Assembly (NCBI GenBank): GCA_004764695.1
Contig: SMSO01000016.1
Coordinates: 48,494-71,748, forward strand
Length of the DNA stretch: 23,255 bases
Origin: Schizochytrium sp. TIO01
Taxonomy: Eukaryota; Sar; Bigyra; Thraustochytrida; Thraustochytriidae
Direction: 5' to 3'
Shown here: in pieces, positions 729 through 22,612 of the stretch
Layout of the letters: each line of letters begins with the position of its first letter
How positions within the stretch are numbered: the first letter of the stretch is position 1
Notes under the pieces: model-generated
Seen by the model: the letters and a program-made list of their open reading frames with translations, nothing else
Databases searched by the model: none
What the model was told of the DNA's origin: nothing
Made by a program: the position numbers and the translations under genes

Positions 729-733
729 TTAAA

Positions 734-1171
734 ATGTGTTCACTTCGTCCTAAACGTATAAAATTTGCAAAGTATCAGCGAGGTCGTCTTAAGTGTTCTT
801 CACCGGGTATTCAAGATCTACTTGCTACAAATTTGCCTTCTTTTACTTTGATTTCAACTGAATCTTGTTACGTTACGAATAATCATCTTAGCGTAGCTAT
901 TAAGCTAATCAAGAAAAAGCTAGTTCGTAAAGGAATTCTTCGTTTGCACGTATTTCCTGATAAACCTTTTACGTCTAAAAGTATTGGTGCTCGAATGGGT
1001 AAAGGTAAGGGTGCTATCTCCATTTGGAAAGCTAAAGTGTCTCCTGGTTCTGTTATCTTTTCTATTTCTGGGGTTTCTGAAACTATCGTAGTAGATGCTT
1101 TTAATTCTATATCTAAAAAATTTCCCTGTTCAGTAAAAGTTGTAAAACGTAATTTTCCAGCCTCATTCTTA
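734..1171 (+). CDS. rpl16: Large subunit ribosomal protein L16 (145 aa), TTA stop
   Basis: L16 helps form the tRNA binding region of the large subunit. The start (MCSLRPKRIKFAKYQRGRLK) aligns with the bacterial opening M.LPKRTKFRKQ.KGR, and RMGKGKGAISIWKAKVSPG (near residues 88-106) is the L16 signature around GKGKG. The first in-frame TTA is at 1169-1171, after NFPASF; a TAA lies only two codons further on, so either reading gives nearly the same protein. I take TTA as the stop because of the genome-wide pattern. The gene follows rps3 by 5 nt. A tRNA-like minihelix stands between it and nad7. Confidence 0.93.
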
Positions 1172-1196
1172 TATTAAGTGTTATTTTTACCCTCTT

Positions 1197-1247
1197 AGTG
1201 GTACTCGTAGTATTATATAAATAGGGGTTCAATTCCCTTTGCCACTT
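1197..1247 (+). other. tRNA-like minihelix (acceptor stem plus T arm, no anticodon arm)
   Basis: A 7-bp acceptor stem is formed by AGTGGTA (1197-1203) and TGCCACT (1240-1246), with one T-G pair. It stacks on a T arm of AGGGG, loop TTCAATT and CCCTT (1223-1239), followed by T as discriminator. Only 19 nt (1204-1222) join the two halves, too few for both D and anticodon arms, and no anticodon stem can be drawn, so it cannot decode. It ends 13 nt before the nad7 ATG, the same distance at which true tRNAs precede genes here. I infer a degenerate tRNA kept as a substrate for RNase P and RNase Z, that is, an mRNA-cutting signal. A similar element lies at 8282-8327. Confidence 0.6.
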
Positions 1248-1260
1248 TACTGAATTTATT

Positions 1261-2454
1261 ATGGCACTTACAAAACGAAAAATAAATAAAGAGCTAAAGA
1301 ATTTTACTCTAAACTTTGGTCCTCAACATCCCGCTGCTCACGGGGTTTTGCGTCTTGTTTTGGACTTGCAAGGAGAAAATGTTCTTCGTGCAGATCCTCA
1401 CATTGGTCTTTTGCATCGAGGTACTGAAAAATTGGTTGAACATAAGAATTATATGCAAGCATTGCCTTATTTCGATAGGCTGGACTATGTTTCTATGATG
1501 GCCCAAGAACACACTTATTCTATAGCAGTTGAATCATTGATGAATATTCAAGTACCTAAACGTTCTATGTATATTAGGGTTATCTTTTTGGAAATCACTC
1601 GTCTATTGAATCATTTGCTATTTATTAGTTGCCACGCGCTTGACGTTGGGGCTATGACCGCTTTTTTTTGGGGATTCGAAGAACGGGAAAAACTTATAGA
1701 GTTTTATGAGCGTGTTTCTGGTGCTCGAATGCACGCTGCTTATGTACGTCCCGGAGGGGTTGCTTACGACATTCCTATAGGCTTGTCAGCAGATATTTAT
1801 AGTTTTTGTGAAGCTTTTCGGGTTCGTCTAGATGAATTTGAAGAGTTGCTAACCGAAAACCGTATTTGGAAACAACGTCTAGTTGATGTGGGAGTTGTTA
1901 CCATAAAAGATGCTGCTTCTTGGGGGTTTAGTGGTGTTATGCTTCGAGGTAGCGGAGTTTGTTGGGATTTGCGTAAAAACACTCCTTATGAAATCTATGA
2001 TGAACTCGATTTTTCGGTTCCTGTAGGTACAAACGGAGATTGCTATGACCGTTACCTTGTTCGAGTAGCTGAGATGCGAGAATCTTTGTCAATCATCGTT
2101 CAGTGTTTGAATAATCTTCCACAAGGTTCTGTTAAAGTAGACCACAAAGTGTCTGCCCCTTCTCGTAAAGAATTGAAACATTCTATGGAAGCTACTATTC
2201 AACACTTTAAATACTTCTCTGAAGGTTTTTCAGTTCCCGCAGGTGAAATTTATATAGCGACTGAAGCCCCTAAAGGAGAATTCGGTGTATTTCTTGTTTC
2301 TGACGGATCTTCAAAACCTTATCGTTGTAAAATAAAAGCGCCCGGATTTGCTCATTTGCAAGGGCTAGACATAATAGCAAAAGGACATCTAATTGCTGAT
2401 GTAGTTACCATTATTGGTACTCAAGATATTGTTTTTGGAGAAGTTGATCGTTTA
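1261..2454 (+). CDS. nad7: NADH dehydrogenase (complex I) subunit 7, 49-kDa type (397 aa), TTA stop
   Basis: Nad7 is the 49-kDa subunit of the matrix arm of complex I and helps form the quinone site. Visible family motifs are [14 protein letters not shown] (about residues 18-31), [25 protein letters not shown] and the C-terminal DIVFGEVDR. Family members end at or just after GEVDR. Here GEVDR is followed by TTA (2452-2454). Ignoring that TTA would add 12 unrelated residues and push the gene 22 nt into trnG; with TTA as stop the gene ends 14 nt before trnG. It is one of the cleanest cases for the altered code. The gene is preceded by a tRNA-like minihelix. Confidence 0.97.
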
Positions 2455-2468
2455 TTTAGGTCAGCTTT

Positions 2469-2540
2469 GCGGATGTGGTGTAAAGGTTAACACTTTAGCC
2501 TTCCAAGCTAATTATGAGGGTTCAAGTCCCTTCATCCGTT
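2469..2540 (+). tRNA. trnG(ucc): tRNA-Gly(UCC)
   Basis: A full cloverleaf can be drawn: acceptor GCGGATG with CATCCGT (first pair G-T), D stem GTGT/ACAC, anticodon stem TTAGC/GCTAA with loop CTTCCAA (anticodon TCC), and T arm GAGGG, TTCAAGT, CCCTT. The discriminator is T. It separates nad7 from the rRNA block and probably marks the 5' side of rnl. Confidence 0.95.
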
Positions 2541-2542
2541 TT

Positions 2543-5012
2543 TATTTATGGCATTTGAAGGATCTCTAGGTAATGTTAATATAGAGGCGTTTTTATATGC
2601 GATAAGCTAACCTATTTCGGTTAGATTCCTCTAGGAAAACCATTAATTTATTTTATTTATAACCTTGCGAATTGAAACATCTTAGTAGCAAGTTAAAAAA
2701 TTAAACAAGGAGTTGAAAGTAGTGGCGAGCGAAATCAATTTAAGCTTAAGGATTTTTTGCAAAAAATTTTAAAACCATAGAAGGTATTTAAGTCCTGTAT
2801 TTTGTAAAAATTTCTTATACATTAGTAAGTTGAGACATGTTATCTTTACTGAAAATAGGAGAACCATCTTCTAAAGCTTAACTTAACATTAACCGATAGC
2901 GCACAAGTACTGTAAAGGAAAGAGTGAAATCAAACTGCTTTTTATGCTAGAGTAGTTTAAAGCTATTATAGCGTGCTTTTTGTATTACGAACTGAAGAGT
3001 TAATAAAAGTAGCCCAGCTTAAGTGGAGACATGTAGGCGTACGTGAAAGCAAAAATTCAATATTATGTTACTTTTATTATACCCGAAACCAAGTGATCTA
3101 TTTATGAACTAGCGGATGTATATTTGCATTCGGCTGAACCCGTATCTGTTGCAAAAGATTGGGATGATTTGTGAATAGGAGTGAAAGGCTAATCAAACTT
3201 GGAAATAGCTGGTTCTTTGCGAAATCTATTTAGGTAGAGTGTTAAATACTAAAAAAGGGGGTAGAGCTCTGTTTAGGGAAGGGGGTGTCACTTACTAACT
3301 CTTTGCAAACTACGAATACCTTTTTTAAGAATATTTAATAAACAAACAATAGGCGATAAGGTCTTTTGTTGAGAGGGAAACAGCCCAGATTTATCGCTAA
3401 GGCCTTTAATGTTTTTTAAGTGCAAAAAGAGTTTATATCCAATGACAGTTAATATGTAGGCTTGGAAGCAGCCATCATTGAAAGAAAGCGTAGTAGCTCA
3501 TTAACTAAGGGTATAGGTTCTGAAAATGTAGGAGACTAAAAAAACAGCCGAAGCGGAAACAGAGCTTAAAAGCTCTGGGTAGCAAAGCTTTTTGTATAAG
3601 TTAGCATACGTTGTAAAATGTGTGTGTTTATCAATTTGATTATTTCAGTATGAGTAACGGAAAACACTCTGTGAATGAGTGTCGTCTGAATCCTCCAGGT
3701 TTCCTAAACAAATGTTGTTCAGTTTAGGGTTATTCGGTCCCTAATTAATTAGCTGAAAAGTTATTATGATGGGTTTTATATATCTAATGAAAAAAAGTAA
3801 TCTAGAAAATTATATAAGGTTTACCGTACTTAAACCGACACAGGTGAGGTAGCATAGTTATGCTAAGACGTAGAGATATTTATTTAAAAGGAACTCGGCA
3901 AATTGGCCTCGTAACTTCGGGAGAAGAGGCGCTTTCTTGATTAAAGAGAAAGTTGCAAAAAAACGGAAATAGCAACTGTTTACTAAAAACACAGGTCTTT
4001 GCAAACACGTAAGTGGTAGTATAAGGACTGACTCCTGCCCGGTGCTGTTATTTTAACTTTTATAGTATTTGCTATAAAACTAAGAACCAGTAAACGGCGG
4101 CAGTAACTCTGACTGTCCTAAGGTAGCGAAATTCATTGGTCACTAATTATGATCCCGCATGAATGGAGTAATGACTGTTTCACTGTCTCTTAAATAATCT
4201 CTGTGAAATTTATTTGCTCGTGAAGAAGCGAGCGTATTCTAAAAAGACGGAAAGACCCCGTGAACTTTTACTGTATCTTTATATTGTTCAAGGTTTTCTA
4301 TTGTACACTGGAAGTGGTAGTTTAATTACATAAGTGAAAGTCCACTCTTTAGTCTACCTAGACTCATTTTTTTAATAAAAGACCGTATAAGGAAGGCAGT
4401 TTATCTGGGGCGGATTCCTTTTAAAAAGTAACAAAGGAGTGCAAAGGCAAGTTATACTTTAAAAAAGTAAGCAGTGTAACGGCAATAAAAACTTGCTTGA
4501 CTGTAAGAGGTACATCTCGCACAGGGGTTTAAAAGCCGGCCGTAGTGATCCGGTGTTTTTTAATGGACAAGACATCGCTTAACGAATAAAAAGTACTCCG
4601 GGGATAACAGGCTAATGTTCTTCAAGAGCTCATATCTAAAAGAACGTTTGGCACCTCGATGTCGACTCAACGCAACCTGAAGCTGAAGCCGGTTTCAAGG
4701 GTTTGGCTGTTCGCCGATTAAAGCGTTACGTGAGTTGGGTTTAGAACGCTGTGAAGCAGTTTGGTCCCTATCTTTTAGAATTTATTGAAAGTAAACAAAA
4801 TGTTTAACTAGTACGAGAGGACCGTTAAGCACTATCCTCTTATGAACCTGTTGTCTAATGGCATCGCAGGGTAGTAACGATAGTTCAGAATAATTGCTGA
4901 AAGCATCTAAAGCAAGAAATCTTTTTGTTATCTTTCTAAACAAAGTGAAAGAACATCTCTTTGATAGGTCACGTGTGTTTTTAGCTTAGTGATACTAATT
5001 TTATTTTTTATT
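2543..5012 (+). rRNA. rnl: Large subunit (23S-type) ribosomal RNA, ends approximate
   Basis: The LSU rRNA forms the peptidyl transferase centre of the mitoribosome. Conserved stretches occur in order: a 5' region resembling the 23S GGATGCC and GCGATAAGC motifs (about 2550-2610), GTGGCGAGCGAAAT near 2722, GACGGAAAGACCCCGTGAAC near 4246, GGGGATAACAGGCTAAT near 4600, and the sarcin-ricin loop AGTACGAGAGGACC near 4811. The total of about 2.47 kb is somewhat shorter than bacterial 23S, and I see no intron. The 5' end is placed just after trnG and the 3' end in the AT-rich stretch before 5036; both are estimates. Unlike the bacterial order, rnl comes before rns. Confidence 0.95.
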
Positions 5013-5035
5013 TTATTATATAGTTTACATTTTTT

Positions 5036-5054
5036 TAGTATTTATTAAATACTA
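5036..5054 (+). repeat. Near-perfect palindrome in the rnl-rns spacer
   Basis: TAGTATTTA and TAAATACTA are exact inverted copies around a single T, in the roughly 50-nt AT-rich spacer that separates the two rRNAs. As RNA it could fold into a 7-bp stem with a 5-nt loop. No tRNA separates the rRNAs, so this may be where their precursor is cut, but an AT-rich palindrome can also arise by chance. Confidence 0.4.
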
Positions 5055-5061
5055 TTTAATA

Positions 5062-6388
5062 TTTTTATGTAAGTTTGATCTTGGCTTAGGATGAACGTTA
5101 GTGAAATGTTTTACACATGCGAGTTGAAAAGCGTACGGGTGAGTTTGTTAAGTATTTATCTTGAAAAAGAGAAGCTTTTCGGAAAGCAAGGTAGTAGGTC
5201 GTTTAATAGACTGACCTAGCCTATGACTTTAAGCGGTTTCGAAAGAAAGATCCGCCACAATGGCACTGAAAAAAGGGCCATACTCTACGTAGAGGCAGCA
5301 GTGAAGAATCTTAGGCAATGAGCGAAAGCTTGACCTAGCAATTTCACAAAATGAAGAAGGCAATTTTGTTGTAAAGTTTAGTAATAAGTTTAAATAATGA
5401 TATAAACTTATTTCTTAGTCCTGACCAATATGCGTGCCAGCAGTCGCGGTAATACGTGAAGGGCTTACGTTATCTATACATTAGGCGTAAAACGTTTGTA
5501 GGTGGTTATTTTTGTTATTTTCTAAATTTTAATTAAACTTTAATTTTGAAATAATACGTTATATCTAGAGGTTCTGAGAAGAAAATAGAATTTTTGAAGT
5601 ACGGGTAAAATCGGTTGATATCAAAAGGACTTTTTTGTGAAGACAATTTTCTACGAAAACCTGACACTGAGAAACGAAAGCGCAGGTAGCAAAAAGGATT
5701 AGAGACCCTTGTAGTCTGCGCCGTAAACGATGTTTATTGTTTAGTGAAATTACTCTTCGGAGATTTTCACTAAATAAGCTAACGCTAAATAAACTGCCTG
5801 GAGAGTACCCCGGCAACGGTGAAATCCAAAAGAATTGACGGGAGCTAGTATAGGCAGCGGAGCATGTTACTTAATTCGACAATACGCGAGTAATCTTACC
5901 AAAGCTTGACAGGAATCTTTTTAACAGGTGTTGCATGGTTGTCTTCAGCTCGTGTTTTGAAATGTATGGTTTAGTCCTTAAACGAGCGAAACCTTTTTTT
6001 AAAGATGTTTTTTCATCTTTAAATCAGCTGAGATAATCAGTTTGAAATTTAAGACTAAGACAAATCTTCATGACCCTTATGCTTTGGGCTGTAAACGTGC
6101 TACAATGGTAAATTCAAAAAGAAGCAATAAAGAAATTTAAAGCAATCCTTTTAACCATTACCGTAGTTCGGATTAAAAGTTGAAACTCACTTTTATGAAG
6201 TTGGAGTTGCCAGTAATCGTGGATCAGCACGCCACGGTGAAATTTTTTACCTAGCTTTGTACATACCGCCCGTCATGTTATGGGAGGTTTCGTTGTATGA
6301 AATGGTTTTAGCCTATAGTATAACGCAGCTGACTGTAATAAAGTCGTAACAAGGTAGCCGTAAGTGAACTTGCGGCTGAATTTATAAA
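5062..6388 (+). rRNA. rns: Small subunit (16S-type) ribosomal RNA, ends approximate
   Basis: The SSU rRNA holds the decoding centre. Recognised landmarks are AAGTTTGATCTTGGCTTAGG (5' domain), the 530 loop GTGCCAGCAGTCGCGGTAAT near 5434, AAAAGAATTGACGGGAGC near 5829, CAGCTCGTG near 5947, TACATACCGCCCGTCA near 6260 and GTCGTAACAAGGTAGCCG near 6344. The 3' end folds into the usual last hairpin (GCCG..CGGC) and runs into GAATTTATAAATAAA. It lacks the CCTCC anti-Shine-Dalgarno tail, which fits the absence of Shine-Dalgarno motifs before the genes. The length of about 1.33 kb is normal to slightly short. Both ends are estimated from the bacterial counterpart. Confidence 0.95.
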
Positions 6389-6482
6389 TAAATTTTAATT
6401 ATAATATCTTTGTATAAAGAAACATTCGGAAACTTTATACTTTTACTTTTTTAAATACTACTCAGGGAATCAAAAAAAGTTT
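6389..6482 (+). other. Unassigned AT-rich spacer with a strong hairpin
   Basis: These roughly 94 nt between rns and trnS form one of the longest unassigned stretches in the window. They contain an exact 8-bp inverted repeat, GTATAAAG (6412-6419) and CTTTATAC (6433-6440), around a 13-nt loop. I see no ORF and no tRNA. A divergent or permuted 5S rRNA is conceivable at this place, since other stramenopiles are known to hide one, but I cannot show it from the sequence. Confidence 0.35.
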
Positions 6483-6569
6483 GGAGAAGTGGCAGAGAGG
6501 TCGATTGCGAACGTTTGCTAAACGTTTACAGGTTAAAACTTGTCGCTGGTTCGAATCCAGTCTTCTCCG
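6483..6569 (+). tRNA. trnS(gcu): tRNA-Ser(GCU)
   Basis: This is a class II tRNA with a long variable arm. The acceptor GGAGAAG pairs with CTTCTCC and the discriminator is G. The anticodon stem AACGT/ACGTT holds loop TTGCTAA (anticodon GCT), which reads AGC and AGT. It is the first of three tRNAs between rns and rpl6. Confidence 0.95.
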
Positions 6570-6585
6570 TTTTGTTTTATATTGT

Positions 6586-6657
6586 TGGGATATAGCTTAA
6601 AGGTAAAGCTTTAGTTTTTGGTACTAAAAGATATAGGTTCGAATCCTGTTATCCCAG
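6586..6657 (+). tRNA. trnQ(uug): tRNA-Gln(UUG)
   Basis: The acceptor TGGGATA pairs with TATCCCA. The anticodon stem TTAGT/ACTAA holds loop TTTTGGT, giving anticodon TTG. The T loop is TTCGAAT and the discriminator is G. Confidence 0.95.
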
Positions 6658-6674
6658 CAGCATTTTGTATGTAG

Positions 6675-6747
6675 GTGGGTATAGTACAGTGGTTAGTACG
6701 CTTGCTTGTGGTGCAAGATGTCGTAGGTTCAAATCCTTCTTCCCGCC
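6675..6747 (+). tRNA. trnH(gug): tRNA-His(GUG)
   Basis: The anticodon stem CTTGC/GCAAG holds loop TTGTGGT, giving anticodon GTG. The acceptor GTGGGTA pairs with TTCCCGC apart from a T-T at position 6. A G at 6674 can pair with the C discriminator, giving the extra G-1 that identifies histidine tRNAs. It lies 14 nt before the rpl6 start. Confidence 0.93.
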
Positions 6748-6761
6748 ATTAACTTTTTATC

Positions 6762-7292
6762 ATGTATTTTACAGTGGTTATAAAAGATGGATTCTCTTTC
6801 TCTGAAAATCAATCTTTTTATATTATTACAGATTCATTTAATAATAAAAGCTTTGCGTTTAAAAAAGAGTTCTTTTTTCAGGTATTTAACGAAACATCGT
6901 CTATCCAATTTGTGTGTTCGAAACGTTCATTTTTGACTAAATTTAAGTCCCTACAATCTAAAATTATCTCTTTCATATCTAATAAAGTTTTTTCTGAAAA
7001 ATTTTCTATAGTAGGGGTAGGTTACAAATGTTCTCTAATTTCTCAAAATACTTTCCAAATTAACATTGGGCTTAGTCACCCTGTTTTGTTTACTATTCCT
7101 AAAGGTATTGTTGTGGAAATTAGTAAAGACCAAACTAAAGCTTTTTTCTATTCTATAAATTATAGTCTTCTAAAAGAATTCGTTTCTTTTATTTGCCAAC
7201 AAAAACAAACTGATCCTTATAAAGGTAAGGGTTGTTTTATAATAAGCAAAGTTTCTGTGTTGCCTCTAAAAGAAGGTAAACGTTCTAAATTA
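6762..7292 (+). CDS. rpl6: Large subunit ribosomal protein L6 (176 aa), TTA stop
   Basis: L6 binds the large subunit near the factor-binding site. The N-terminal half is diverged. The second half carries recognisable L6 features: GVGYKCSL near residue 86, LSHPVLFTIP (family GhSh..PIP), and DPYKGKG with KEGKRSK at the C-terminus (family pattern DPYKGKGI...K.GK). At 176 residues it equals bacterial L6, which has about 177. TTA (7290-7292) follows KEGKRSK directly. If TTA were leucine, this gene would be fused in frame to rps2 with only three extra residues between them. The context trnH-rpl6-rps2-rps4 is tightly packed. Confidence 0.88.
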
Positions 7293-7301
7293 TTTATTAT
7301 T

Positions 7302-7772
7302 ATGAAATCTGTTAAAATAATCTTTTTTTCTTCTATTTTGTCAAAGTATGGTTTGCTTTATTCTAAGCAAACTCAAGCGTTTATGAAAGTTTTCTACTTT
7401 ATTACCAATCTGCGTAAAAGTCAAGTTTCTTTTTGTATTGTAGGGAATTCAAAATCAATAGCACGCTTCTTTTATATGTTTAAAAATGAATCCGTTACTT
7501 TTTTGAGTAAATGGGTTCCTGGTACTCTATCCAATTCTCAAAAAAATTCTCGATCTTTTTATCCTGATATTTTGATCGTTATGGGCTTTAAAAAAAATCT
7601 TGTCGCTATTTTGGAAGCAAATAAAAAGGGGATTCCTGTAATCTGTTTTTCTAACGAAAGTTCTCTAAAGAAATATTCTTTTTATTTGCCTTACGTTATT
7701 TTTTGTGATCCTCGTCAAATTAAAGCTCTTTGGTTTTCTATATTTCTTTTTTTTACATCTTTTAAAAAATAA
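7302..7772 (+). CDS. rps2: Small subunit ribosomal protein S2, reduced (156 aa)
   Basis: S2 sits on the back of the small subunit between head and body. The pattern WVPGTLSN (about residues 73-80) matches the S2 core W..GTLTN. PDILIVMGFKKNLVAILEAN followed by GIPVIC matches the S2 stretch PD.....D....A..EA...IPVI. The protein is much shorter than bacterial S2 (about 240 residues) and seems to have lost much of the N-terminal and coiled-coil region. I start it at the only suitable ATG after the rpl6 TTA, leaving a 9-nt spacer. It ends with TAA, and rps4 starts 1 nt later. There is no internal TTA. Confidence 0.85.
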   Translation: MKSVKIIFFSSILSKYGLLYSKQTQAFMKVFYFITNLRKSQVSFCIVGNSKSIARFFYMFKNESVTFLSKWVPGTLSNSQKNSRSFYPDILIVMGFKKNLVAILEANKKGIPVICFSNESSLKKYSFYLPYVIFCDPRQIKALWFSIFLFFTSFKK

Positions 7773-7773
7773 A

Positions 7774-8271
7774 ATGCTTAAGTTTAAACAACTAAAAAAA
7801 CTAAAAATAAATCCTATCTATTCTCAAAAATTTGTTGCTCATTGTTGTAAGCCGCAAAATACTTGGGTTTCCATTTTGAAACAAGCTCAAAAAAATAGGG
7901 TTTCTTCATTTGTACGTTTGCACGCAATTAAAAAAGATGTTTTTAATCAGCGCAAACAAGTTAAGTACACTTATGGTTCATCTTCTCCAAGTCCACTTAA
8001 GCTTGATTTTCTTATTTGGAGTTCTCGTTTCTATCCTTCACTATTGGCAGCTCGTCATGCTGTTTGTTCTAGTAAAGTAGTCGTAAATGGAATTGTTCAA
8101 AAAAATCCAAATTTCATTTTGTCAGCGGGAGATCTTGTTCATATTCAGGGAAATATCACTATTAATGGTTCATTTTTTACTACCGTAAATCAAAATGTAG
8201 CTTTGCAAGCTATTATTCCCCAAAATTTGGAAATCAGTTTTAGTACACGCAGTTTTGTAGTTTGTTACTAA
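7774..8271 (+). CDS. rps4: Small subunit ribosomal protein S4, reduced (165 aa)
   Basis: S4 is a primary assembly protein of the small subunit body. The S4 RNA-binding domain is clear: KLDFLIWSSRFYPSLLAARH (from about residue 78) then VVVNGIVQKNP and AGDLVHI match the pattern RLD..L.R..F..S...AR..V..G.V.VNG........GD. The N-terminal S4 domain is short and basic, so the protein is smaller than bacterial S4 (about 205 residues). The frame is also open upstream to 7705, but that lies inside rps2; the ATG at 7774, 1 nt after the rps2 stop, is the sensible start. It ends with TAA and has no internal TTA. Confidence 0.88.
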   Translation: MLKFKQLKKLKINPIYSQKFVAHCCKPQNTWVSILKQAQKNRVSSFVRLHAIKKDVFNQRKQVKYTYGSSSPSPLKLDFLIWSSRFYPSLLAARHAVCSSKVVVNGIVQKNPNFILSAGDLVHIQGNITINGSFFTTVNQNVALQAIIPQNLEISFSTRSFVVCY

Positions 8272-8281
8272 CTACGTGTTT

Positions 8282-8327
8282 ACGGGGGTTTCGGTTAATT
8301 AAAAAGGTTCAAGTCCTTTTCCTCGTT
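8282..8327 (+). other. tRNA-like minihelix (acceptor stem plus T arm, no anticodon arm)
   Basis: ACGGGGG (8282-8288) pairs with TCCTCGT (8320-8326), with two G-T pairs. It stacks on a perfect T arm of AAAGG, loop TTCAAGT and CCTTT (8303-8319), with T as discriminator. Only 14 nt (8289-8302, with a D-loop-like CGGTTAA) join the halves, so the anticodon arm and most of the D arm are missing. It ends 12 nt before the rps8 ATG and begins 10 nt after the rps4 stop, the place where a punctuating tRNA would stand. It resembles the element at 1197-1247 in architecture but not in sequence. Confidence 0.6.
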
Positions 8328-8339
8328 TAAATATATTTT

Positions 8340-8714
8340 ATGATAAATTTTCAAAGGCTTATCTCTTCTTTGAATATAGGAATTCAACAAAATGCAAGTG
8401 TTGTGCAAGTTCCTAATTCTAAACAAAATCTTCAATTTATTTCTTTGCTTTATAAAGAAGGTTTTATTAAAGCTTTTCAATTTTCTGGTCGTAATATTAA
8501 AGTTTTTCTTTTCAAAAATAATAGTCTTTTGAAAGGTAAAAAATTTATTCTTTTTTCACACAATAAAAAAGATGTTTACGTATCTACTAAAAATTTGTGG
8601 GCGCATAGTGGACTTTGTTCGTTGTTTATCTCTACTTCAAAAGGTTCATTGGTTCATTATTCAAAAAGTTTTTCAAATCTAAAAGGAGGTAAATTGCTTG
8701 CCGCCACTATCTAA
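8340..8714 (+). CDS. rps8: Small subunit ribosomal protein S8 (124 aa)
   Basis: S8 is a core assembly protein of the small subunit. The C-terminal half carries the S8 hallmark LFISTSKGSLVHYSK (about residues 95-109; family pattern G..I.STS.G..TH..A) followed by GGKLL. The N-terminal part contains LQFISLLYKEGFI, matching the family motif I...L...GFI. The length is close to the bacterial 130. It ends with TAA, and every codon was checked without finding TTA. nad2 follows after 31 nt. Confidence 0.93.
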   Translation: MINFQRLISSLNIGIQQNASVVQVPNSKQNLQFISLLYKEGFIKAFQFSGRNIKVFLFKNNSLLKGKKFILFSHNKKDVYVSTKNLWAHSGLCSLFISTSKGSLVHYSKSFSNLKGGKLLAATI

Positions 8715-8745
8715 TTTTCTATTCTTATGATTTCATTGCTAACTC

Positions 8746-10245: not shown

Positions 10246-10262
10246 ATGGTAAATCCATTTTC

Positions 10263-10335
10263 GCTTAAGTAGCTCAGTTGGCAGAGCATAAGACTGAAAA
10301 TCTTTGTGTCACTGGTTCAAATCCAGTCTTAAGCA
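10263..10335 (+). tRNA. trnF(gaa): tRNA-Phe(GAA)
   Basis: The acceptor GCTTAAG pairs exactly with CTTAAGC and the discriminator is A. The D arm is AGCTCAGTTGGCAGAGC. The anticodon loop is CTGAAAA with anticodon GAA, and the T arm is CTGG, TTCAAAT, CCAG. It lies between nad2 and rps10. Confidence 0.95.
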
Positions 10336-10347
10336 ATTTATTTTATT

Positions 10348-10623
10348 ATGATTCGTGGTTATTTTCAACTTTATAGTTTTAAATCTATACCTTCTTCTGT
10401 TAAACAAAAAAAGGTATTCACTTTTAACAAATCTCATCATGTAAATAAAAAATCTAAGACATCCGCAAGTCTTGTTTTTTATAAAACTAAAGCATCTTCA
10501 CTTCATACATTTAGTTCGTGGTCAGATATAAAAAATTTTTATATTTATCAAGCACTTTCTATTTTTTCTAAAAAAATTACTTTTAGTTTTCGTATGAAAG
10601 TGGTTGCTTGCCCTTATAGTTTA
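10348..10623 (+). CDS. rps10: Probable small subunit ribosomal protein S10, short N-terminus (91 aa)
   Basis: This small, basic, non-membrane protein contains KVFTFNKSHHVNKKSKTSAS (about residues 22-41), which fits the S10 core RFTVLISPHVNKDAR, followed by a stretch like the S10 helix and final strand (SIFSKKITFSF for GVDVQISLG). S10 sits in the small subunit head. About 24 residues that precede the SPHVNK motif in bacteria are absent, so the N-terminal helix region looks deleted. The first in-frame TTA (10621-10623) lies 14 nt inside trnE; ignoring it would extend the frame to a TAG at 10638. The two RNAs could not both be complete from one transcript. The identification is by eye from one motif. 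Confidence 0.65.
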
Positions 10624-10681: not shown

Positions 10682-10695
10682 ACTCTTATTAGAAA

Positions 10696-11484: not shown

Positions 11485-11485
11485 T

Positions 11486-12241: not shown

Positions 12242-12246
12242 TTATT

Positions 12247-12263
12247 ATGTAGGTTTACTACAT
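12247..12263 (+). repeat. 6-bp hairpin abutting trnN
   Basis: ATGTAG (12247-12252) and CTACAT (12258-12263) are exact inverted copies around loop GTTTA. The hairpin ends one base before the first base of trnN. It could form in the atp6 3' leader and affect processing or mRNA stability. Confidence 0.4.
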
Positions 12264-12335
12264 TCTCTAGTAGCTCAGGGGTAGAGCATTTGGCTGTTAA
12301 CCAAATTGTCGTTGGTTCAAATCCAATCTAGGGAG
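12264..12335 (+). tRNA. trnN(guu): tRNA-Asn(GUU)
   Basis: The acceptor TCTCTAG pairs with CTAGGGA and the discriminator is G. The D arm is AGCTCAGGGGTAGAGC. The anticodon stem TTTGG/CCAAA holds loop CTGTTAA (anticodon GTT). It lies between atp6 and cox2. Confidence 0.96.
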
Positions 12336-12353
12336 TTTATTAAATTTTTATAT

Positions 12354-13106
12354 ATGCTTTTTACTTTGTTTGGTTATTGTGATGCTGCTACTCCATGGCA
12401 ATTCGGATTTCAAGACCCTGCTACTCCTATCGCAGAAGGTATTATTCGATTTCATCACGATTTGATGTTTATTATGGTTTTTGTTGTAGTTTTTGTTTTT
12501 TGGATGCTTACTCGTATCGTAATGCATTTCAACGTAAAAACCAACCCTAACCCTTCAGCTGTAGTTCACGGAACTACTATTGAAATTATTTGGACTTTGA
12601 TTCCTGCAGTTCTTCTTATGATTATTGCAGTTCCTTCTTTTGCTCTTCTATACTCTGTAGATGAAGTAGTAGATCCCTCTGTTACTTTGAAAGTTATTGG
12701 GCATCAATGGTATTGGTCATACGAATACTCTGACTATGAAAATGAAGATGGAGAAAATCTAGTTTTCGATTCTTACATGTTGCCTGATGATGAATTGTCT
12801 TTGGGAGATTTGCGAATGTTGGAAGTAGATAACCGTGTAGTATTGCCTGTTGATACTCATGTTCGTCTTATTGTAACCAGTGCTGATGTGCTACATTCTT
12901 GGACTGTACCGTCTTTTGGAGTTAAAATGGATGCTTGCCCTGGTCGTCTTAACGAAGCTAGTTTGTTTATTCAACGTCCTGGTGTTTTTTATGGTCAATG
13001 TAGTGAAATTTGTGGTGTAAACCATGGATTTATGCCTATCGCAGTAGAAGCTTTGAAACTAGAAGATTACGTTTCTTGGGTAGCTGCTAAACTAGAAGAC
13101 GCTTTA
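12354..13106 (+). CDS. cox2: Cytochrome c oxidase subunit 2 (250 aa), TTA stop
   Basis: Cox2 accepts electrons from cytochrome c through the CuA centre. Two N-terminal membrane helices are followed by a soluble domain with [30 protein letters not shown] and the CuA site [16 protein letters not shown] (about residues 210-225). The protein ends [12 protein letters not shown] before TTA at 13104-13106, a normal Cox2 C-terminus. Continuing past it would add seven residues, including another TTA, and would overlap tatA. The ATG at 12354 is the first after trnN; the frame is open upstream only within the tRNA. Confidence 0.98.
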
Positions 13107-13116
13107 TTTTTAGTAT

Positions 13117-13251
13117 ATGTATCTTAGCTTTTTTCAAATTTGTTTTGTTGTACTTATCGCTTTTTTGCTTTTTGGTAATTCTAATAATCTTATTAAAACA
13201 TTTAAAAAGAATATTAAAAATATTCAAAAAGAATTTCAAAAAAAAGAATTA
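13117..13251 (+). CDS. tatA: Probable TatA, twin-arginine translocase subunit (44 aa), TTA stop
   Basis: This short ORF between cox2 and trnW has the TatA plan: an N-terminal membrane helix ([16 protein letters not shown], about residues 5-20) ending in the LLFG motif, then a lysine-rich amphipathic helix ([20 protein letters not shown]). TatA oligomers form the passage for folded proteins in the Tat system, with TatC as receptor; no tatC is seen in this window. TTA at 13249-13251 stops it 9 nt before trnW. If TTA coded leucine the frame would continue into the tRNA to a TAG at 13279. With the cox2 TTA stop, it begins 10 nt after cox2 with no overlap. An unrelated small membrane protein cannot be excluded. 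Confidence 0.65.
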
Positions 13252-13260
13252 CAACATTTC

Positions 13261-14856
<1,596 letters not shown>

Positions 14857-14860
14857 ATTA

Positions 14861-14875
14861 AAAGCTTTTAGCTTT
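14861..14875 (+). repeat. 6-bp hairpin in the cox1-nad4 spacer
   Basis: AAAGCT and AGCTTT are exact inverted copies around TTT, in the 27-nt spacer between cox1 and nad4. This junction has neither a tRNA nor a tRNA-like minihelix, so the hairpin may mark a cleavage site or protect the cox1 3' end. It is AT-rich and short, so chance is possible. Confidence 0.35.
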
Positions 14876-14883
14876 AAAAAATT

Positions 14884-16359
14884 ATGTCATTTCTTTATAT
14901 TTCTTACCTTATTGGTATTCCCGCTTTTATCGGTAGTTTTCTTTTGATTTTTCCACTATCAAATAAAGTATCAAAGCAACTTGCTTTGGGAGCATCACTT
15001 ATTAGTTTTTATATTTCTATTCTAATGTGGGTGTTTTTTGATAATAACAACGGTGCGTTTCAATTCGTAGAAACTTATAATTGGTTTAGTTCATCCAATC
15101 TAGCTATTACCTTTGGAGTCGATGGAATTTCTTTGTTCTTTATTCTATTGACAGCTTTTCTAATTCCTATTTGTCTTCTATCTTCTTGGTCGTCTGTAAA
15201 AACAAAAAATCATCTTTTTACTGATCGTCATTATTTTGCTCTTTTTCTTTTGATAGAAAGTATGATTTTTATCGTATTTACTTCACTAGATTTGATCGTT
15301 TTTTATACTTTTTTTGAAGCCGTTTTGATGCCTATGTTTTTTATTATCGGTGTTTGGGGTTCCCGTGAACGTAAAATTCGTGCATCTTATCTATTTTTTA
15401 TGTACACTCTTTTTGGTTCTCTATTTATATTGCTTGCTATCGTATTCATCTATATAGAATGCGGTAGTACTCATTATTTGATGCTTTTGGAAACTAGTTT
15501 TAGTCCTGAACGTCAAAAAATTTTGTGGCTAGCTTTCTTTTTCTCATTCGCTGTTAAAGTGCCTATGTTGCCTGTACATTTGTGGTTGCCTGAAGCGCAC
15601 GTAGAAGCACCTACTGCGGGTTCTGTTCTACTAGCTGGAGTGCTTTTGAAATTGGGTACTTACGGTATAATCCGTTATTCTTTGCCATTGTTTCCATTGG
15701 CTAGTTTTTATTTTCGTCCTTTTGTATTTACTTTGGCATCTTTGGCAGTTGTTTATTCTTCAATAACCGCTATTCGTCAAAGTGATATAAAACGTGTGAT
15801 TGCTTACGCTTCAGTTGCTCACATAAATATAACTGTAATTGGCTTGTTTAGTTTTAATTTGGTAGGTGTTGAAGGTGCTATTTTTCAAATGCTATCACAC
15901 GGTGTTGTTTCAGGAGCTTTGTTTTTGTGTGTAGGTGTATTGTATGATCGTCATCATAGCCGATTGATTAAATATTATGGCGGACTTGTGCATACTATGC
16001 CTCTTTTTGTAATTCTATTTCTTGTATTTACTATAGCAAATATTGCATTGCCAGGTACTTCCAGTTTTGTTGGAGAGTTCCTTATCTTGTTTGGTACTTT
16101 TTATGCTAATTCATTCGTAGCTTTTGTAGCCGCGACTAGTATGATTTTGGGAAGTGCGTATTCTCTATGGCTTTTTAATCGTCTGTGTTACGGTAACCTC
16201 AAATTGCAATACATTCAAGTTTCTTTTGATATTACAAAACAAGAATTTTGGGTGTTTATGCCATTGTTGTTTCTTACTATCTTTGGGGGTATCTTTCCCG
16301 GTATTTTTTTGGATCCTCTACATACTAGCTGTAGCGTTTTGCTTTCAGTTTTTTATTTA
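14884..16359 (+). CDS. nad4: NADH dehydrogenase (complex I) subunit 4 (491 aa), TTA stop
   Basis: Nad4 is an antiporter-like proton-pumping subunit of the complex I membrane arm. Diagnostic stretches are TFGVDGISLFFILLTAFLIP, the FFEAVLMPMFFIIGVWGSRE region (about residues 145-164), KVPMLPVHLWLPEAHVEAPT (about residues 224-243) and the SDIKRVIAYASVAHIN region. About 14 membrane segments are visible and the length is typical. TTA at 16357-16359 is followed at once by TAA, so the end is safe under either code. nad11 follows after 6 nt. Confidence 0.98.
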
Positions 16360-16365
16360 TAAAAT

Positions 16366-16992
16366 ATGATTTCTCTATATATTAACAATTCTAAAGTACT
16401 TGTACAGAAAAATTCAACCGTATTTCAAGCTTGTGCAAAAGTCGGTGTTGTAATTCCTCGTTTTTGTTTTCATGAACGTTTGCTTATCGCAGGTAATTGC
16501 CGTATATGTTTGGTGGAAATCGAAAAATTTCCTAAACCTGTAGCTTCGTGTGCAATGCCCGTAAGTGAAAATATAAAAATTTTTACTGATACTCCATTGG
16601 TAAAAAAAGCACGTGAAGCTGTAATAGAGTTTTTGTTGATTAATCATCCTCTGGATTGTCCTATTTGTGATCAAGGGGGTGAATGTGATTTGCAAAATCA
16701 ATCTTTTCATTATGGAACTAATTCTTCTCGTTTTTTTTCAAAAAAACGTAGTGTGGTTGATAAGAATGTAGGTCCTTTTATTTCTATAATTATAACCAGG
16801 TGTATCCATTGTACTCGTTGTGTTCGTTTTCTAAATGAAGTTGCTGGTTATTCTTTTTTTGGTATAACCGGTCGTGGATATGCCTCTGAAATTGGTACTT
16901 TTGTCCAAAAATCTCTTAAATCAAAACTTTCCGGTAATATTATTGATCTATGTCCTGTTGGTTTTATTTCTATTAAAAAATACAATGTTTTA
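16366..16992 (+). CDS. nad11: NADH dehydrogenase (complex I) subunit 11, N-terminal iron-sulfur part only (208 aa), TTA stop
   Basis: Nad11 is the 75-kDa subunit that carries electrons through iron-sulfur clusters in the matrix arm. Cluster motifs appear in order: [20 protein letters not shown] with a later C (2Fe-2S), [17 protein letters not shown] (N5 and N3 type), then [10 protein letters not shown] and DLCPVG (N4). The protein stops right after the CPVG.....K.Y boundary, so the large molybdopterin-type C-terminal domain is missing. In several stramenopiles this domain is known to be encoded separately or in the nucleus, so I infer a natural split, not a pseudogene. TTA at 16990-16992 lies inside the start of nad1, giving an 8-nt overlap. 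Confidence 0.95.
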
Positions 16993-17953
16993 TATTGAAA
17001 GTGTACTTAAAGTTTTGGGTATCGTAGTTCCTTTGCTAGTAGGTATTGCATTGTTTACTGTGGCTGAGCGAAAAGTTTTGAGTAGTATTCAACGTAGGCG
17101 AGGTCCAAATATTATTGGAGCTTTCGGATTGTTGCAAGCCTTTGCAGATGGTCTTAAACTATTGTTGAAAGAAACTGTTTTGCCAAGTAGTTCAAACAAA
17201 GCTTTGTTTGTAATTGCTCCAATAATTACTTTTTTCTTGAGTCTTATAGGTTGGGCAGTTATTCCCGTAAATGAAACTTATGTGTTTGCTGATCTAAATG
17301 TAGGTGTTTTGTATATCTTTGCAATTTCGTCTCTAGGAGTTTACGGTATTATTATTTCTGGTTGGGCAAGTAACTCAAAATACGCTTTTTTGGGTGCCCT
17401 TCGTTCTGCTGCCCAAATAGTTTCCTATGAAATTTCAATAGGTTTTATTATAATAAACGTTATTCTTTGTGCAAATTCTCTAAACCTTACTCAAATTGTT
17501 TTGGCTCAAGAAGCTATTTGGTATTGTGTGCCTTTGCTACCTATATTTATTTTGTTTTTTGTTTCATGTTTGGCTGAAACAAATCGTCACCCTTTTGATT
17601 TGCCTGAAGCTGAAGCTGAACTTGTTTCCGGGTATAATGTTGAATATTCTGCTATGGGTTTTGCATTGTTCTTTTTGGGTGAATATGGTAATATAATTTT
17701 GATAAGTTCTCTAAATGTTATTCTATTTATAGGAGGATGGCTATTTCCATTGCAAATTTTTGAAGGTTGTTTTTGTTTTGCTATTAAAACATTCTTTTTT
17801 ATTAGTTTGTTTATTTGGGTCCGTGCCGCATATCCTCGTTATCGTTATGATCAACTAATACGCCTTGGATGGAAAGTATTTCTTCCTTTGTCTATAAGTT
17901 GGACTATTTTGACTGCAAGTATTCTATTGAGTTTTAATTGGTATATTTCTTTA
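16985..17953 (+). CDS. nad1: NADH dehydrogenase (complex I) subunit 1 (322 aa), TTA stop
   Basis: Nad1 forms the membrane end of the quinone channel in complex I. Hallmarks are [17 protein letters not shown] (about residues 24-40), [15 protein letters not shown] and [20 protein letters not shown] (about residues 198-217), plus about eight membrane segments. The ATG lies inside the last codons of nad11. The first in-frame TTA is at 17951-17953, after NWYIS, giving a typical length. Reading on would add 11 more residues with a second TTA and would overlap nad4L by 35 nt; with TTA as stop, nad4L starts 1 nt later. Confidence 0.97.
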
Positions 17954-17954
17954 C

Positions 17955-18263
17955 ATGTTTTTGGATATCTTTTATTTTATTTTTGTTAGTTTTTGTTTGT
18001 TTTTTATTGGAGTATGTGGTATTGTTCTAAACAGGAAAAGTATTTTGATTATCTTGATATCAATTGAAATTATGTTGCTAGCTGTAAATCTTCAATTTTT
18101 GTTTTTTTCTGTTTATTTGGATGATCTTTATGGCCAAGTATTTTCACTATTTGTTCTTACTGTTGCAGCGGCAGAATCCGCGATTGGTTTGGCTATTTTG
18201 GTTTGTTATTTTAAAGTTCATACTAGTGTAGAAATAAAAACAGTTAATTTGCTTCAAGGATGA
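17955..18263 (+). CDS. nad4L: NADH dehydrogenase (complex I) subunit 4L (102 aa)
   Basis: Nad4L is a small membrane subunit of complex I with three helices. Visible features are [20 protein letters not shown] (about residues 25-44) with the conserved membrane glutamate, and [17 protein letters not shown] (about residues 67-83) with the second one. The length is as expected. It ends with TGA, one of two TGA stops in this window. I read all codons and found no TTA. It begins 1 nt after the nad1 TTA. Confidence 0.97.
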
Positions 18264-18268
18264 AGCAT

Positions 18269-18341
18269 GGGCGTGTAGCTTAGTGGTTAAAGCTTTCGGT
18301 TGATAATCGAAAGACCAAAGGTTCAAATCCTTTTACGCCTA
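18269..18341 (+). tRNA. trnI(gau): tRNA-Ile(GAU)
   Basis: The acceptor GGGCGTG pairs with TACGCCT (G-T at both ends) and the discriminator is A. The anticodon loop is TTGATAA, anticodon GAT, and the T arm is AAAGG, TTCAAAT, CCTTT. ATA codons are used in the genes here, but no tRNA-Ile(CAU) is seen in the window. Confidence 0.95.
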
Positions 18342-18351
18342 TCCCTTTATA

Positions 18352-18425
18352 AGGCAGTTAGCTCAATAGGTTAGAGCATTTCGTTTACACCGAAGAGGTT
18401 GGCGGTTCAAGTCCGCTGCTGCCTA
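18352..18425 (+). tRNA. trnV(uac): tRNA-Val(UAC)
   Basis: The acceptor AGGCAGT pairs with GCTGCCT and the discriminator is A. The anticodon loop is TTTACAC, anticodon TAC, and the T arm is GGCGG, TTCAAGT, CCGCT. It lies 11 nt before nad9. Confidence 0.95.
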
Positions 18426-18436
18426 AATTTTATTAT

Positions 18437-19006
18437 ATGTTTACTTTCTATAAATGGATTAGCTCAGTTCTTGCAAACGTGCTAAATGGTAGTTTCTTTA
18501 TAAATGATCATATCACTTTGGTCGTTAAAAAAGAATCTCTAATTGATGTAATACGTTTTCTAAAAAGTAATTCACATTGCCAGTTTATTGTTTTGAGTGA
18601 TATCGCAGGGGTAGATTACCCTTTTCGAGCAAATCGCTTTGAAGTAGTTTATCAACTGCTATCTATTAGGTATAACTGTCGAATTACTGTTAAAGTAAAT
18701 CTTGCTTCAGAAGAAGCAGTACCTTCTATTACATCTATTCATGAATCCGCGAATTGGTATGAGCGAGAAGCATTTGATCTTTTTGGAATCTTTTTCTCAA
18801 ATCACCCTGATCTTCGTCGTATTCTAACTGACTACGGTTTTGAAGGGCATCCTATGCGTAAAGATTTTCCTCTAACTGGATTTCATGAATTGCGTTACGA
18901 TATTGAAAAAAAACGAGTTGTTTGTGAACCACTTGAACTTTCTCAAGAATTCCGTAATTATACTTTTAATTCTTCTTCTCAGCTTACTAAGCCTGTTATT
19001 TCTTTA
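18437..19006 (+). CDS. nad9: NADH dehydrogenase (complex I) subunit 9, 30-kDa type (189 aa), TTA stop
   Basis: Nad9 is the 30-kDa subunit of the complex I matrix arm. The family signature [20 protein letters not shown] (about residues 99-118) and [20 protein letters not shown] are clear, followed by [13 protein letters not shown] near the C-terminus. TTA at 19004-19006 ends the protein at the usual length. Reading on would take the frame 17 nt into cob; with TTA as stop there is a 7-nt spacer before the cob ATG. Confidence 0.97.
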
Positions 19007-19013
19007 TTTTTAA

Positions 19014-20162
19014 ATGAAACGTTGGACTAAACAGCCTATTCTGGCTATTATCAATAATCATATCGTTGACTACCCTACTCCTATCAATATTAGTTATATG
19101 TGGGGATTCGGATCTTTGTCAGGGCTTATGTTGGTTGTTCAAATTCTTACTGGTGTTTTTCTTGCTATGCATTATACTCCTCATGTAGATCTCGCTTTTA
19201 GTAGTGTAGAACATATTATGCGTGATGTAAATAATGGTTGGCTTCTTCGTTACCTTCATGCAAATGGAGCAAGTTTCTTTTTTATTGTTGTTTACATTCA
19301 CATGTTTCGTGGTCTATACTATGGATCATATGCGCATCCTCGTGAATTGCTATGGTGTTCTGGAGTAGTTATTTTTATTTTGATGATGGCTACTGCTTTT
19401 ATTGGATATGTTCTTCCTTGGGGTCAAATGTCTTTTTGGGGAGCTACCGTTATTACTAATCTTATTTCTGCTATTCCTGCTGTAGGTGAATCTGTGGTTA
19501 ATTGGGTTTGGGGAGGTTTTTCAGTAGATAATCCTACTCTAAATCGTTTCTTTAGTTTGCACTATATTTTGCCTTTTGTTATTGCAGCTTTGGCATTGGT
19601 TCACTTGGTACTTTTGCACCAAGATGGATCAAACAACCCTTTGGGAGTAGATTCAAAATCTGATACCATTAGTTTTTATCCTTATTTTTATGTTAAAGAT
19701 CTATTTGGGTTGATTCTTTTGTTTATTGTTTACTCTTATTTTGTGTTTTTTGCTCCAAATGTTTTGGGTCACAGTGATAACTATATTATGGCAAATCCTA
19801 TGGTTACTCCTGCACACATTGTTCCTGAATGGTACTTTTTGCCATTCTATGCTATTTTGCGTTCTATTCCTCACAAATTGGGTGGTGTTATTGCTATGTT
19901 TGGTGCTATCGTTTGTTTGATGGCTTTGCCATTCATTAACACTTCAGAAGTTCGTTCATCTGTATTTCGTCCTATTTTCCGAAAATTTTTTTGGTTGTTT
20001 GTTGTTGATTGTATGATTTTGGGTTGGATTGGTCAAAATGTAGTTGAATATCCTTATGTAGAAATTGGGCAAGTTTGTACTGTTTTCTACTTCTTCTTTT
20101 TGCTAGTTCTAATTCCTCTTTTGGGTCGTTTTGAAAGTATGCTAATGCGAGCATCACTTTAA
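19014..20162 (+). CDS. cob: Cytochrome b (382 aa)
   Basis: Cytochrome b is the membrane core of complex III with two haems and both quinone sites. Visible hallmarks are [36 protein letters not shown] (haem histidines), [40 protein letters not shown] and the quinol-oxidation motif [16 protein letters not shown]. The length is normal and no intron is seen. It ends with TAA 8 nt before trnM. Confidence 0.99.
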
Positions 20163-20170
20163 AACGTTTT

Positions 20171-20244
20171 GGCGGTATAGCTCAGTTGGTTAGAGCATGG
20201 GAATCATAATCCTGGGGTTGCAAGTTCAAATCTTGCTATCGCTA
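20171..20244 (+). tRNA. trnM(cau): tRNA-Met(CAU), elongator
   Basis: The acceptor GGCGGTA pairs with TATCGCT (G-T at position 1 and one more G-T). The D arm AGCTCAGTTGGTTAGAGC and anticodon loop ATCATAA (CAT) resemble the bacterial elongator tRNA-Met. A tRNA-Ile with a modified CAU anticodon is the main alternative, because the base sequence alone cannot show lysidine. Confidence 0.8.
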
Positions 20245-20250
20245 AATTTT

Positions 20251-20324
20251 CGGGGTGTAACGCAGTTGGTTAGCGTGTTAGTTTTGGGAACTAAAAGTCG
20301 TATGTTCAAGTCATACCTCCCCGA
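20251..20324 (+). tRNA. trnP(ugg): tRNA-Pro(UGG)
   Basis: The acceptor CGGGGTG pairs with CTCCCCG except for one T-T, and the discriminator is A. The anticodon stem TTAGT/ACTAA holds loop TTTGGGA (anticodon TGG), and the T arm is GTATG, TTCAAGT, CATAC. It lies 12 nt before nad6. Confidence 0.95.
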
Positions 20325-20336
20325 TCTTTATTTTAA

Positions 20337-20945
20337 ATGCTTTCCTTTCTTTTTTATATTTTTAGCTCTATTTTGCTAATTTCTAGTTTGTTTGTTATTA
20401 TAACAACTAACCCTGTTTATTCGGTATTTTATCTTATTCTTGGTTTTTGTAATGCATCCGCAATCCTTTTGTTGTTTGAGCTAGAATTTCTTGGTTTTTT
20501 GCTTTTGATTGTTTACGTAGGTGCTATCGCAGTACTTTTTCTTTTTGTTGTTATAATGTTGAATGTTGCAGTTTCTCGAGAACATTCTTCAAATTTTTTT
20601 GGTTATCTGTTTTTTGCTGTCATTTTTTGTAGTTTTTTTGTAATAACCCAAAATTTTTCATATAATACAAGTCTTTTTTTTCAACAATCATATTTTTCTT
20701 GGTTTTCTTCATACGATTCATCCCAAAACGTATTGCTTATAGCAAACGTTTTGTATTCTTATTATTTTGTACCTTTTTTGCTAGCCGGGTTTGTTTTGCT
20801 AATTGCCATGGTAGGTGCTATCGTTTTGACACTAAATCCAACCCTATTTTATAATAGCCAATCTTTGATTTTTAAAAAACAAAAAGTTTATCAACAACTT
20901 TCGCGCCAATCAAATAAAGCTGTTTTTTTGTTTAAACGTAATTAA
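20337..20945 (+). CDS. nad6: NADH dehydrogenase (complex I) subunit 6 (202 aa)
   Basis: Nad6 is a membrane subunit of complex I. The N-terminal half has the family core FYLILGFCNASAILLLFELE and FLLLIVYVGAIAVLFLFVVI (about residues 56-75), and a further membrane stretch near residue 145 ends in AMVGAIVLTL, also typical. Five membrane segments are visible. It ends with TAA, whose last A is the first base of the rps7 ATG. No TTA was found in the second half, which I read codon by codon. Confidence 0.97.
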   Translation: MLSFLFYIFSSILLISSLFVIITTNPVYSVFYLILGFCNASAILLLFELEFLGFLLLIVYVGAIAVLFLFVVIMLNVAVSREHSSNFFGYLFFAVIFCSFFVITQNFSYNTSLFFQQSYFSWFSSYDSSQNVLLIANVLYSYYFVPFLLAGFVLLIAMVGAIVLTLNPTLFYNSQSLIFKKQKVYQQLSRQSNKAVFLFKRN

Positions 20946-21340
20946 TGTTCTTTTCTAAACTAAATTCATTTATTATAAATAAAGGTACTCGTAAAGTGGC
21001 AAAAAAAAATCTTGCTAAAACATGCTTGCTTTTTTTGAAAAGTTCAGTTTCAAATTCTGAAAAACTTATTAGTTTTTCTAGTTTTATGAAAAAAAGTTTT
21101 GATAAAGCCTCTTTGCCGCTAGCTCAAAAAAGGCTTCTTCATAAACGTAATGCAGTTGTTATTATACCCCTTTCAAAATCAAAACAAATGTTGAAAAGTA
21201 TATCTTCTTTTGTTCGTTCTGCCCAAAAAGCTTCTTTTTCTCAAGTATTTTTTAAAGAAATTATATCTAGTCAATCAAATCAAGGGAGTGTATTTATAAA
21301 AAAAATTACTTCTTTGAAATCTATTGAAAAAGCTCGTTAA
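20945..21340 (+). CDS. rps7: Small subunit ribosomal protein S7 (131 aa)
   Basis: S7 organises the head of the small subunit. The protein is basic and diverged but follows the S7 order: FIINKGTRKVAKKNLAKTCL (about residues 9-28; family F.N..M..GKK..A), then LAQKRLLHKRNAVVIIPLSK (family RR.GG....VP), then FFKEIISSQSNQGSVFIKK (family LA.E...A....G...KK) and IEKAR at the end. It is shorter than bacterial S7. It lies directly before rps12, its classical partner, though in reverse of the bacterial order. It overlaps the nad6 stop by one base and ends with TAA. There is no TTA in any codon. Confidence 0.82.
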   Translation: MFFSKLNSFIINKGTRKVAKKNLAKTCLLFLKSSVSNSEKLISFSSFMKKSFDKASLPLAQKRLLHKRNAVVIIPLSKSKQMLKSISSFVRSAQKASFSQVFFKEIISSQSNQGSVFIKKITSLKSIEKAR

Positions 21341-21347
21341 TAAATAA

Positions 21348-21710
21348 ATGTCCACTCTTTTGCAATCTATAAAACGTAAAAAAAGTAGTTTCATTAAAAA
21401 AGAAACTGCTTTGAAAAAAGCACCCCAAGCAAGTGGTGTTTGTTTGAAAGTTTTTACTATGTCTCCAAAAAAGCCTAACTCTGCTGTACGTAAAGTAGCC
21501 AAAGTGCTTTTGAGTAATAAAAACATTATTTCTGCGTATATTCCAGGCGAAGGACATAACCTTCAAGAACATTCTAGCGTATTGGTTCGTGGAGGTCGTG
21601 TTAAGGATCTACCTGGAGTTCGTTATAAAATTGTACGTGGGGCTAAAGATACTGCCGGTGTTATAAAACGAAAAACATCGCGTTCTAAATATGGAGCCCC
21701 TAAACAATTA
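21348..21710 (+). CDS. rps12: Small subunit ribosomal protein S12 (120 aa), TTA stop
   Basis: S12 lies at the decoding centre. Conserved parts are [20 protein letters not shown] (about residues 26-45), [19 protein letters not shown] and [19 protein letters not shown], ending [10 protein letters not shown], the normal C-terminus of S12. The next codon is TTA (21708-21710), and trnD begins 1 nt later. Ignoring TTA would add eight residues read from tRNA sequence and overlap trnD by 23 nt. This is among the strongest cases for TTA as a stop because S12 is so conserved. Confidence 0.98.
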
Positions 21711-21711
21711 T

Positions 21712-22524: not shown

Positions 22525-22528
22525 TTTT

Positions 22529-22610: not shown

Positions 22611-22612
22611 TT

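Follow-up and report, generated by a model that had tools for sequence, protein, structure and literature searches.

The question raised by this locus is whether TTA is read as a stop codon, and if so, which release factor recognizes it. The window, meaning the whole stretch of DNA that was analyzed (23,255 nucleotides from Schizochytrium sp. TIO01, GenBank assembly GCA_004764695.1, contig SMSO01000016.1, forward strand), corresponds to positions 48494-71748 of a contig of 71,748 bp, here called C15, in a 64-Mb nuclear assembly of 37 contigs. Judged from sequence, it is almost certainly part of the mitogenome of a thraustochytrid (Labyrinthulea) near Schizochytrium/Aurantiochytrium whose mitochondrial genes follow NCBI table 23, the Thraustochytrium mitochondrial code. 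Termination at UUA and the change in the mitochondrial release factor mtRF2a are already established for labyrinthuleans (NCBI table 23), and this genome is one more consistent case, in which the mitochondrial and nuclear sides are seen together.

Codon use and gene ends

Codons were counted in 35 mitochondrial coding sequences (7,558 codons) from the window and the rest of the mitogenome, the sequences added to the window genes being tatC, rpl2, rps19, rpl14, probable rpl5, rps13, rps11, nad5, and atp8. A preliminary description of the window had claimed that TTA never appears inside conserved genes, with TTG, CTT, and CTA common, and the in-frame count upheld this, at 0 TTA against 387 TTG, 256 CTT, and 177 CTA. 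The third-position preference in Lys, Gln, and Glu codons was A:G = 761:87 (approximately 9:1), a ratio at which thousands of TTA would be expected beside 387 TTG were the two freely interchangeable, and at which the probability of finding none has a log10 of approximately -383. In the two other reading frames of the mitochondrial genes, TTA occurred 352 and 141 times per 5,717 triplets. Since TTA was treated as a stop when the open reading frames were defined, its absence inside them follows in part from that definition, and the independent test is that the frames have full family length and carry TTA at the family C-terminus. Five codons were unused inside the 35 coding sequences: TAA, TAG, TGA, TTA, and AGA.

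The 35 genes ended with TAA (18), TTA (15), or TGA (2). TTA closed 11 genes in the window, one of them weakly identified (orf91), and 4 others on the same contig, namely rps19, which crosses the left edge of the window, and tatC, rps11, and atp8, which lie outside it. The TTA ends in the window, together with the TGA-terminated cox1, were as follows.

734-1171, + strand: rpl16, TTA stop at 1169-1171; Pfam Ribosomal_L16 matched over 1-132 of 132 positions to residue 137 of 145, and TIGR01164 to position 125 of 126 at residue 131
1261-2454, + strand: nad7, TTA stop at 2452-2454; nearly all solved homologues listed end at the residue immediately preceding TTA (...GEVDR)
6762-7292, + strand: rpl6, TTA stop at 7290-7292; TIGR03654 matched to position 174 of 175 at residue 173 of 176
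10348-10623, + strand: orf91, TTA end at 10621-10623; possibly rps10, of weak identity, with no family match above cut-off
12354-13106, + strand: cox2, TTA stop at 13104-13106; residue 246 of 250 aligned with residue 249 of the closest solved Cox2 (251 residues)
13117-13251, + strand: tatA-like open reading frame (44 residues), TTA stop at 13249-13251; weak TatA matches (E 0.004-0.13, under cut-offs)
13348-14856, + strand: cox1, terminated by TGA, which is a stop and not Trp
14884-16359, + strand: nad4, TTA stop at 16357-16359 with TAA directly after; residue 487 of 491 aligned with 489 of 495 in plant Nad4
16366-16992, + strand: nad11 N-terminal half, TTA stop at 16990-16992, overlapping the nad1 start; Fer4_Nqo3 matched to position 65 of 67 at residue 200 of 208
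16985-17953, + strand: nad1, TTA stop at 17951-17953; residue 319 of 322 aligned with 323 of 325 in plant Nad1
18437-19006, + strand: nad9, TTA stop at 19004-19006; aligned through residue 178 of 189
21348-21710, + strand: rps12, TTA stop at 21708-21710, adjoining tRNA-Asp at 21711; residue 120 of 120 aligned with residue 122 of a 124-residue bacterial uS12

All ten TTA coordinates given in the preliminary description were exact and in frame, and its list lacked only the orf91 end at 10621. Its further claim, that these ten TTA codons stand exactly at family C-termini, held to differing degrees when the ends were compared with solved homologues and family profiles: sharply for nad7, rps12, rpl6, nad1, cox2, and nad4, less sharply for nad9, rpl16, and nad11, and weakly for tatA. 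The agreement was exact to the residue in nad7 and within a few residues in rps12, nad1, cox2, and nad4, and rpl6, rps11, and rps19 ended at most 3 residues past a profile match that reached the last 1-2 profile positions. In tatC, as in nad9, rpl16, and nad11, TTA was compatible with the family C-terminus, and orf91, like tatA, gave weak C-terminal agreement. A Protein Data Bank search with rpl16 produced no match at a strict cut-off. Family searches confirmed the recognized genes, with rps7, tatA, and orf91 weakly confirmed or unconfirmed. The nad11 frame covers the N-terminal iron-sulphur part alone (208 residues), the remainder presumably being nuclear.

Under table 23, each recognized gene formed a single full-length open reading frame with no internal stop, in agreement with the earlier proposal that this table applies. 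With TTA translated as leucine, rpl6 gained 159 residues by fusion with rps2 (339 residues in total), nad1 overlapped nad4L, nad9 overlapped cob, and rps19 ran into rps3; nad1, nad9, nad11, and rps12 ran into neighboring genes or tRNAs, and other genes gained short tails, such as 11 residues on nad7. Annotation with any table but 23 therefore yields the false tails, overlaps, and rpl6-rps2 fusion of which the preliminary description had warned. TGA is a stop, not Trp, in this mitogenome: it occurred nowhere inside genes, it ends cox1 and nad4L, and the sole tRNA-Trp has a CCA anticodon, and table 4 (TGA = Trp) was therefore rejected. TAG was found neither as a terminator (0 of 35) nor inside genes, which may be chance with 35 genes.

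Leucine tRNAs, release factors, and rival explanations

The assembled mitogenome contains 21 transfer RNA (tRNA) genes. The only two leucine tRNAs found in it both lie in the window and were identified with ARAGORN and Rfam.

22528-22611, + strand: tRNA-Leu(UAG), which reads CUN
22978-23054, + strand: tRNA-Leu(CAA), for which UUG is the sole expected codon

Using the same two programs, tRNA-Leu(UAA) was not found in the assembled mitogenome, in which a 4.2-kb gap of N on C15 remains. TTG would remain leucine through its reading by tRNA-Leu(CAA), and the TTG codons of cox1 fall mostly in leucine columns of the alignment.

Three RF-1-domain proteins are encoded in the nuclear genome: mtRF1a, mtRF2a, and an ICT1-like protein. 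The recognition loop of mtRF1a is normal (QRVPAT), and the ICT1-like protein matches the catalytic GGQ domain only. For mtRF2a (contig C24), residues were numbered as in T. thermophilus RF2, with the numbering fixed using solved sequences, giving S193, P194E, F195Y, H202Q, T203, and S204C. Alphaproteobacteria, the only bacteria recovered when bacterial genomes were searched with cox1 (identity up to 71%), served as controls: P194E and S204C were present in 0 of 15 alphaproteobacterial RF2 sequences, with Pro194 and Ser204 in all 15, and F195Y and H202Q also occur among these 15. Besides Ser204Cys, then, a Glu replaces the Pro of the SPF tripeptide in this protein. Labyrinthulean mtRF2a is reported to have A, G, or C in place of Ser204, which is proposed to allow UUA recognition (PMC12574857); the present mtRF2a shares the substitution of Ser204, here by Cys, and also carries P194E. 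An independent change at the same position is reported for a plastid RF2, with proteins there likewise ending at UUA (PMC12574857).

Observed here, then, are a missing tRNA-Leu(UAA), an altered mtRF2a, and the positions of the TTA codons. The most likely course is that the tRNA for UUA was lost and that, without a competing tRNA-Leu(UAA), mtRF2a with Ser204Cys would tolerate U as the second base of the codon, releasing the peptide at UUA in addition to UAA and UGA, a role suggested by the correlation seen here and in published cases; mtRF1a would serve UAA. Several points weigh against this account. A standard stop lies 0-11 codons past several of the TTA stops, so that short leucine-containing tails are possible at the level of single genes; termination at TTA is predicted from the sequence; the link between Ser204Cys and release at UUA is correlative; and a tRNA gene could lie within the 4.2-kb gap in the assembly of C15, with C37, the apparently complete unit, covered in part.

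The tails are also what would be expected if TTA were still leucine and merely avoided inside genes, its tRNA being missing or scarcely imported, with the genes really ending a few codons later, at the first TAA, TGA, or TAG. Most TTA-ended genes in the window do have a standard stop within 0-11 codons, but read-through would add 159 residues to rpl6 by the fusion with rps2, would carry nad1, nad9, nad11, and rps12 into genes or a tRNA and rps19 into rps3, and would extend nad7 and rps12 past a family C-terminus reached just before TTA; mtRF2a, moreover, bears the change tied to UUA termination, and we regard a leucine reading as very improbable. Editing of TTA to TAA, by which the stop would become standard in the RNA, would leave both the absence of TTA inside genes and the missing tRNA-Leu(UAA) unexplained; we know of no case of such editing in labyrinthuleans, and give it hardly any credence.

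If UUA does terminate, mtRF1a or the ICT1-like factor could act in place of mtRF2a, all three being encoded in the nuclear genome. Against this stand the unchanged recognition loop of mtRF1a, the restriction of the ICT1-like match to the GGQ domain, and the finding of unusual recognition-loop residues in mtRF2a only; ICT1-like factors are also, to our knowledge, not codon-specific. We consider a role for either protein at UUA unlikely, and release by mtRF2a remains the preferred explanation.

Related mitogenomes and codes

The code read here shares with table 23 the added stop TTA, the stops TAA and TGA, and leucine at TTG and CTN; it differs in that TAG, a stop in the table, is used by 0 of 35 genes, and in that AGA, arginine in the table, is absent. 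UUA termination is reportedly present in all labyrinthuleans studied by Zihala, Salamonova and Elias in 2020 (Mol Phylogenet Evol 152:106908). In the mitogenome of Schizochytrium sp. TIO1101 (KU183024), the stops listed by the authors are likewise TAA, TGA, and TTA, and that genome also agrees with the present one in the lengths of rps19 (165 bp) and nad5 (1,968 bp), in its 21 tRNAs, and in its set of 10 nad, 3 atp, and 3 cox genes, cob, and tatC (PMC7799850). It measures 31,494 bp (PMC7799850), compared with a 41.7-kb unit here that includes a GC-richer tandem-repeat region, and the present count adds the tatA-like frame and orf91. The exact gene-length matches with TIO1101, together with Ser204Cys in mtRF2a, lend support to the earlier claim that this is a labyrinthulean mitochondrion. 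Outside labyrinthuleans, mitochondria of Marsupiomonadales and Pseudoscourfieldia have UUR stops, and thus the same shift of UUA from leucine to stop; there, however, UUG terminates as well and the altered factor is mtRF1a, whereas here UUG is leucine and mtRF1a is normal (PMC12574857).

Labyrinthulean relatives were also sought in viral contigs using cox1, giving five loci at 44-58% identity, which are not close mitochondria, and a search of viral contigs with nad7 gave no match. Four of the viral-filed contigs (L010-L013) carry cox1 at 50-58% identity to the present Cox1, and L010 also carries cox2. A literature search on Aurantiochytrium mitogenome architecture found nothing relevant.

Absence of AGA and copies of the mitogenome

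A second A-ending codon is out of use, being unassigned, avoided, or a latent stop, and this lies outside the finding of the preliminary description. AGA was absent from all 7,558 codons, with AGG present 27 times; at the same A:G ratio as above, more than 200 AGA would be expected, and the absence beside 27 AGG has a log10 P of approximately -27. As a terminator, AGA was found in 0 of 35 genes. AGG stands at widely conserved arginines (for example, nad1 RRRGPN and rpl2 GKRPTVRG) and is still arginine. No tRNA-Arg or tRNA-Thr gene was found in the assembled mitogenome on C15, and both tRNAs are presumably imported. The nuclear tRNA-Arg genes include both UCU and CCU anticodons; a nuclear tRNA-Arg(UCU) thus exists, and the missing AGA is therefore not attributable to its lack, an explanation that was rejected.

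In another labyrinthulean clade, LAB14, both AGA and AGG have been proposed as stops. We suggest tentatively, and with more doubt than confidence, that AGA, as well as TTA, has left the code here, as an unassigned codon or a latent fifth stop, with AGG kept as arginine, and that TTA and AGA represent two steps in the loss of A-ending codons from split boxes. This genome could then be at an intermediate stage, in which TTA has already been captured as a stop and AGA has not yet been. The absence of AGA beside a retained AGG could be of use in studying how a codon drops out of a code ahead of its reassignment.

Since a second copy of the window, at 99.99% identity, is present on C15 at 7347-30600, this contig is a concatemer in which the mitogenome is wound more than once, the two copies being separated by the 4.2-kb run of N. 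Contig C37 (41,662 bp) carries another copy, oppositely oriented, and is apparently one complete mitogenome unit (41.7 kb). Relative to the first C15 copy and C37, the window departs at two places: an additional A at position 45 shifts the frame so that rps19 no longer ends at its TTA stop, and a single-base difference at approximately 23190 breaks rpl14 (from 23069). Both are probably assembly errors, because two of the three copies agree on intact rps19 and rpl14.

1-56, + strand: rps19 3' end; the first C15 copy and C37, without the extra A at 45, close rps19 at TTA

Positions 1-5700 and 35000-44277 of C15 are gene-poor, with a guanine-plus-cytosine (GC) content of up to 0.48, compared with approximately 0.33, and contain tandem repeats of approximately 100 bp.

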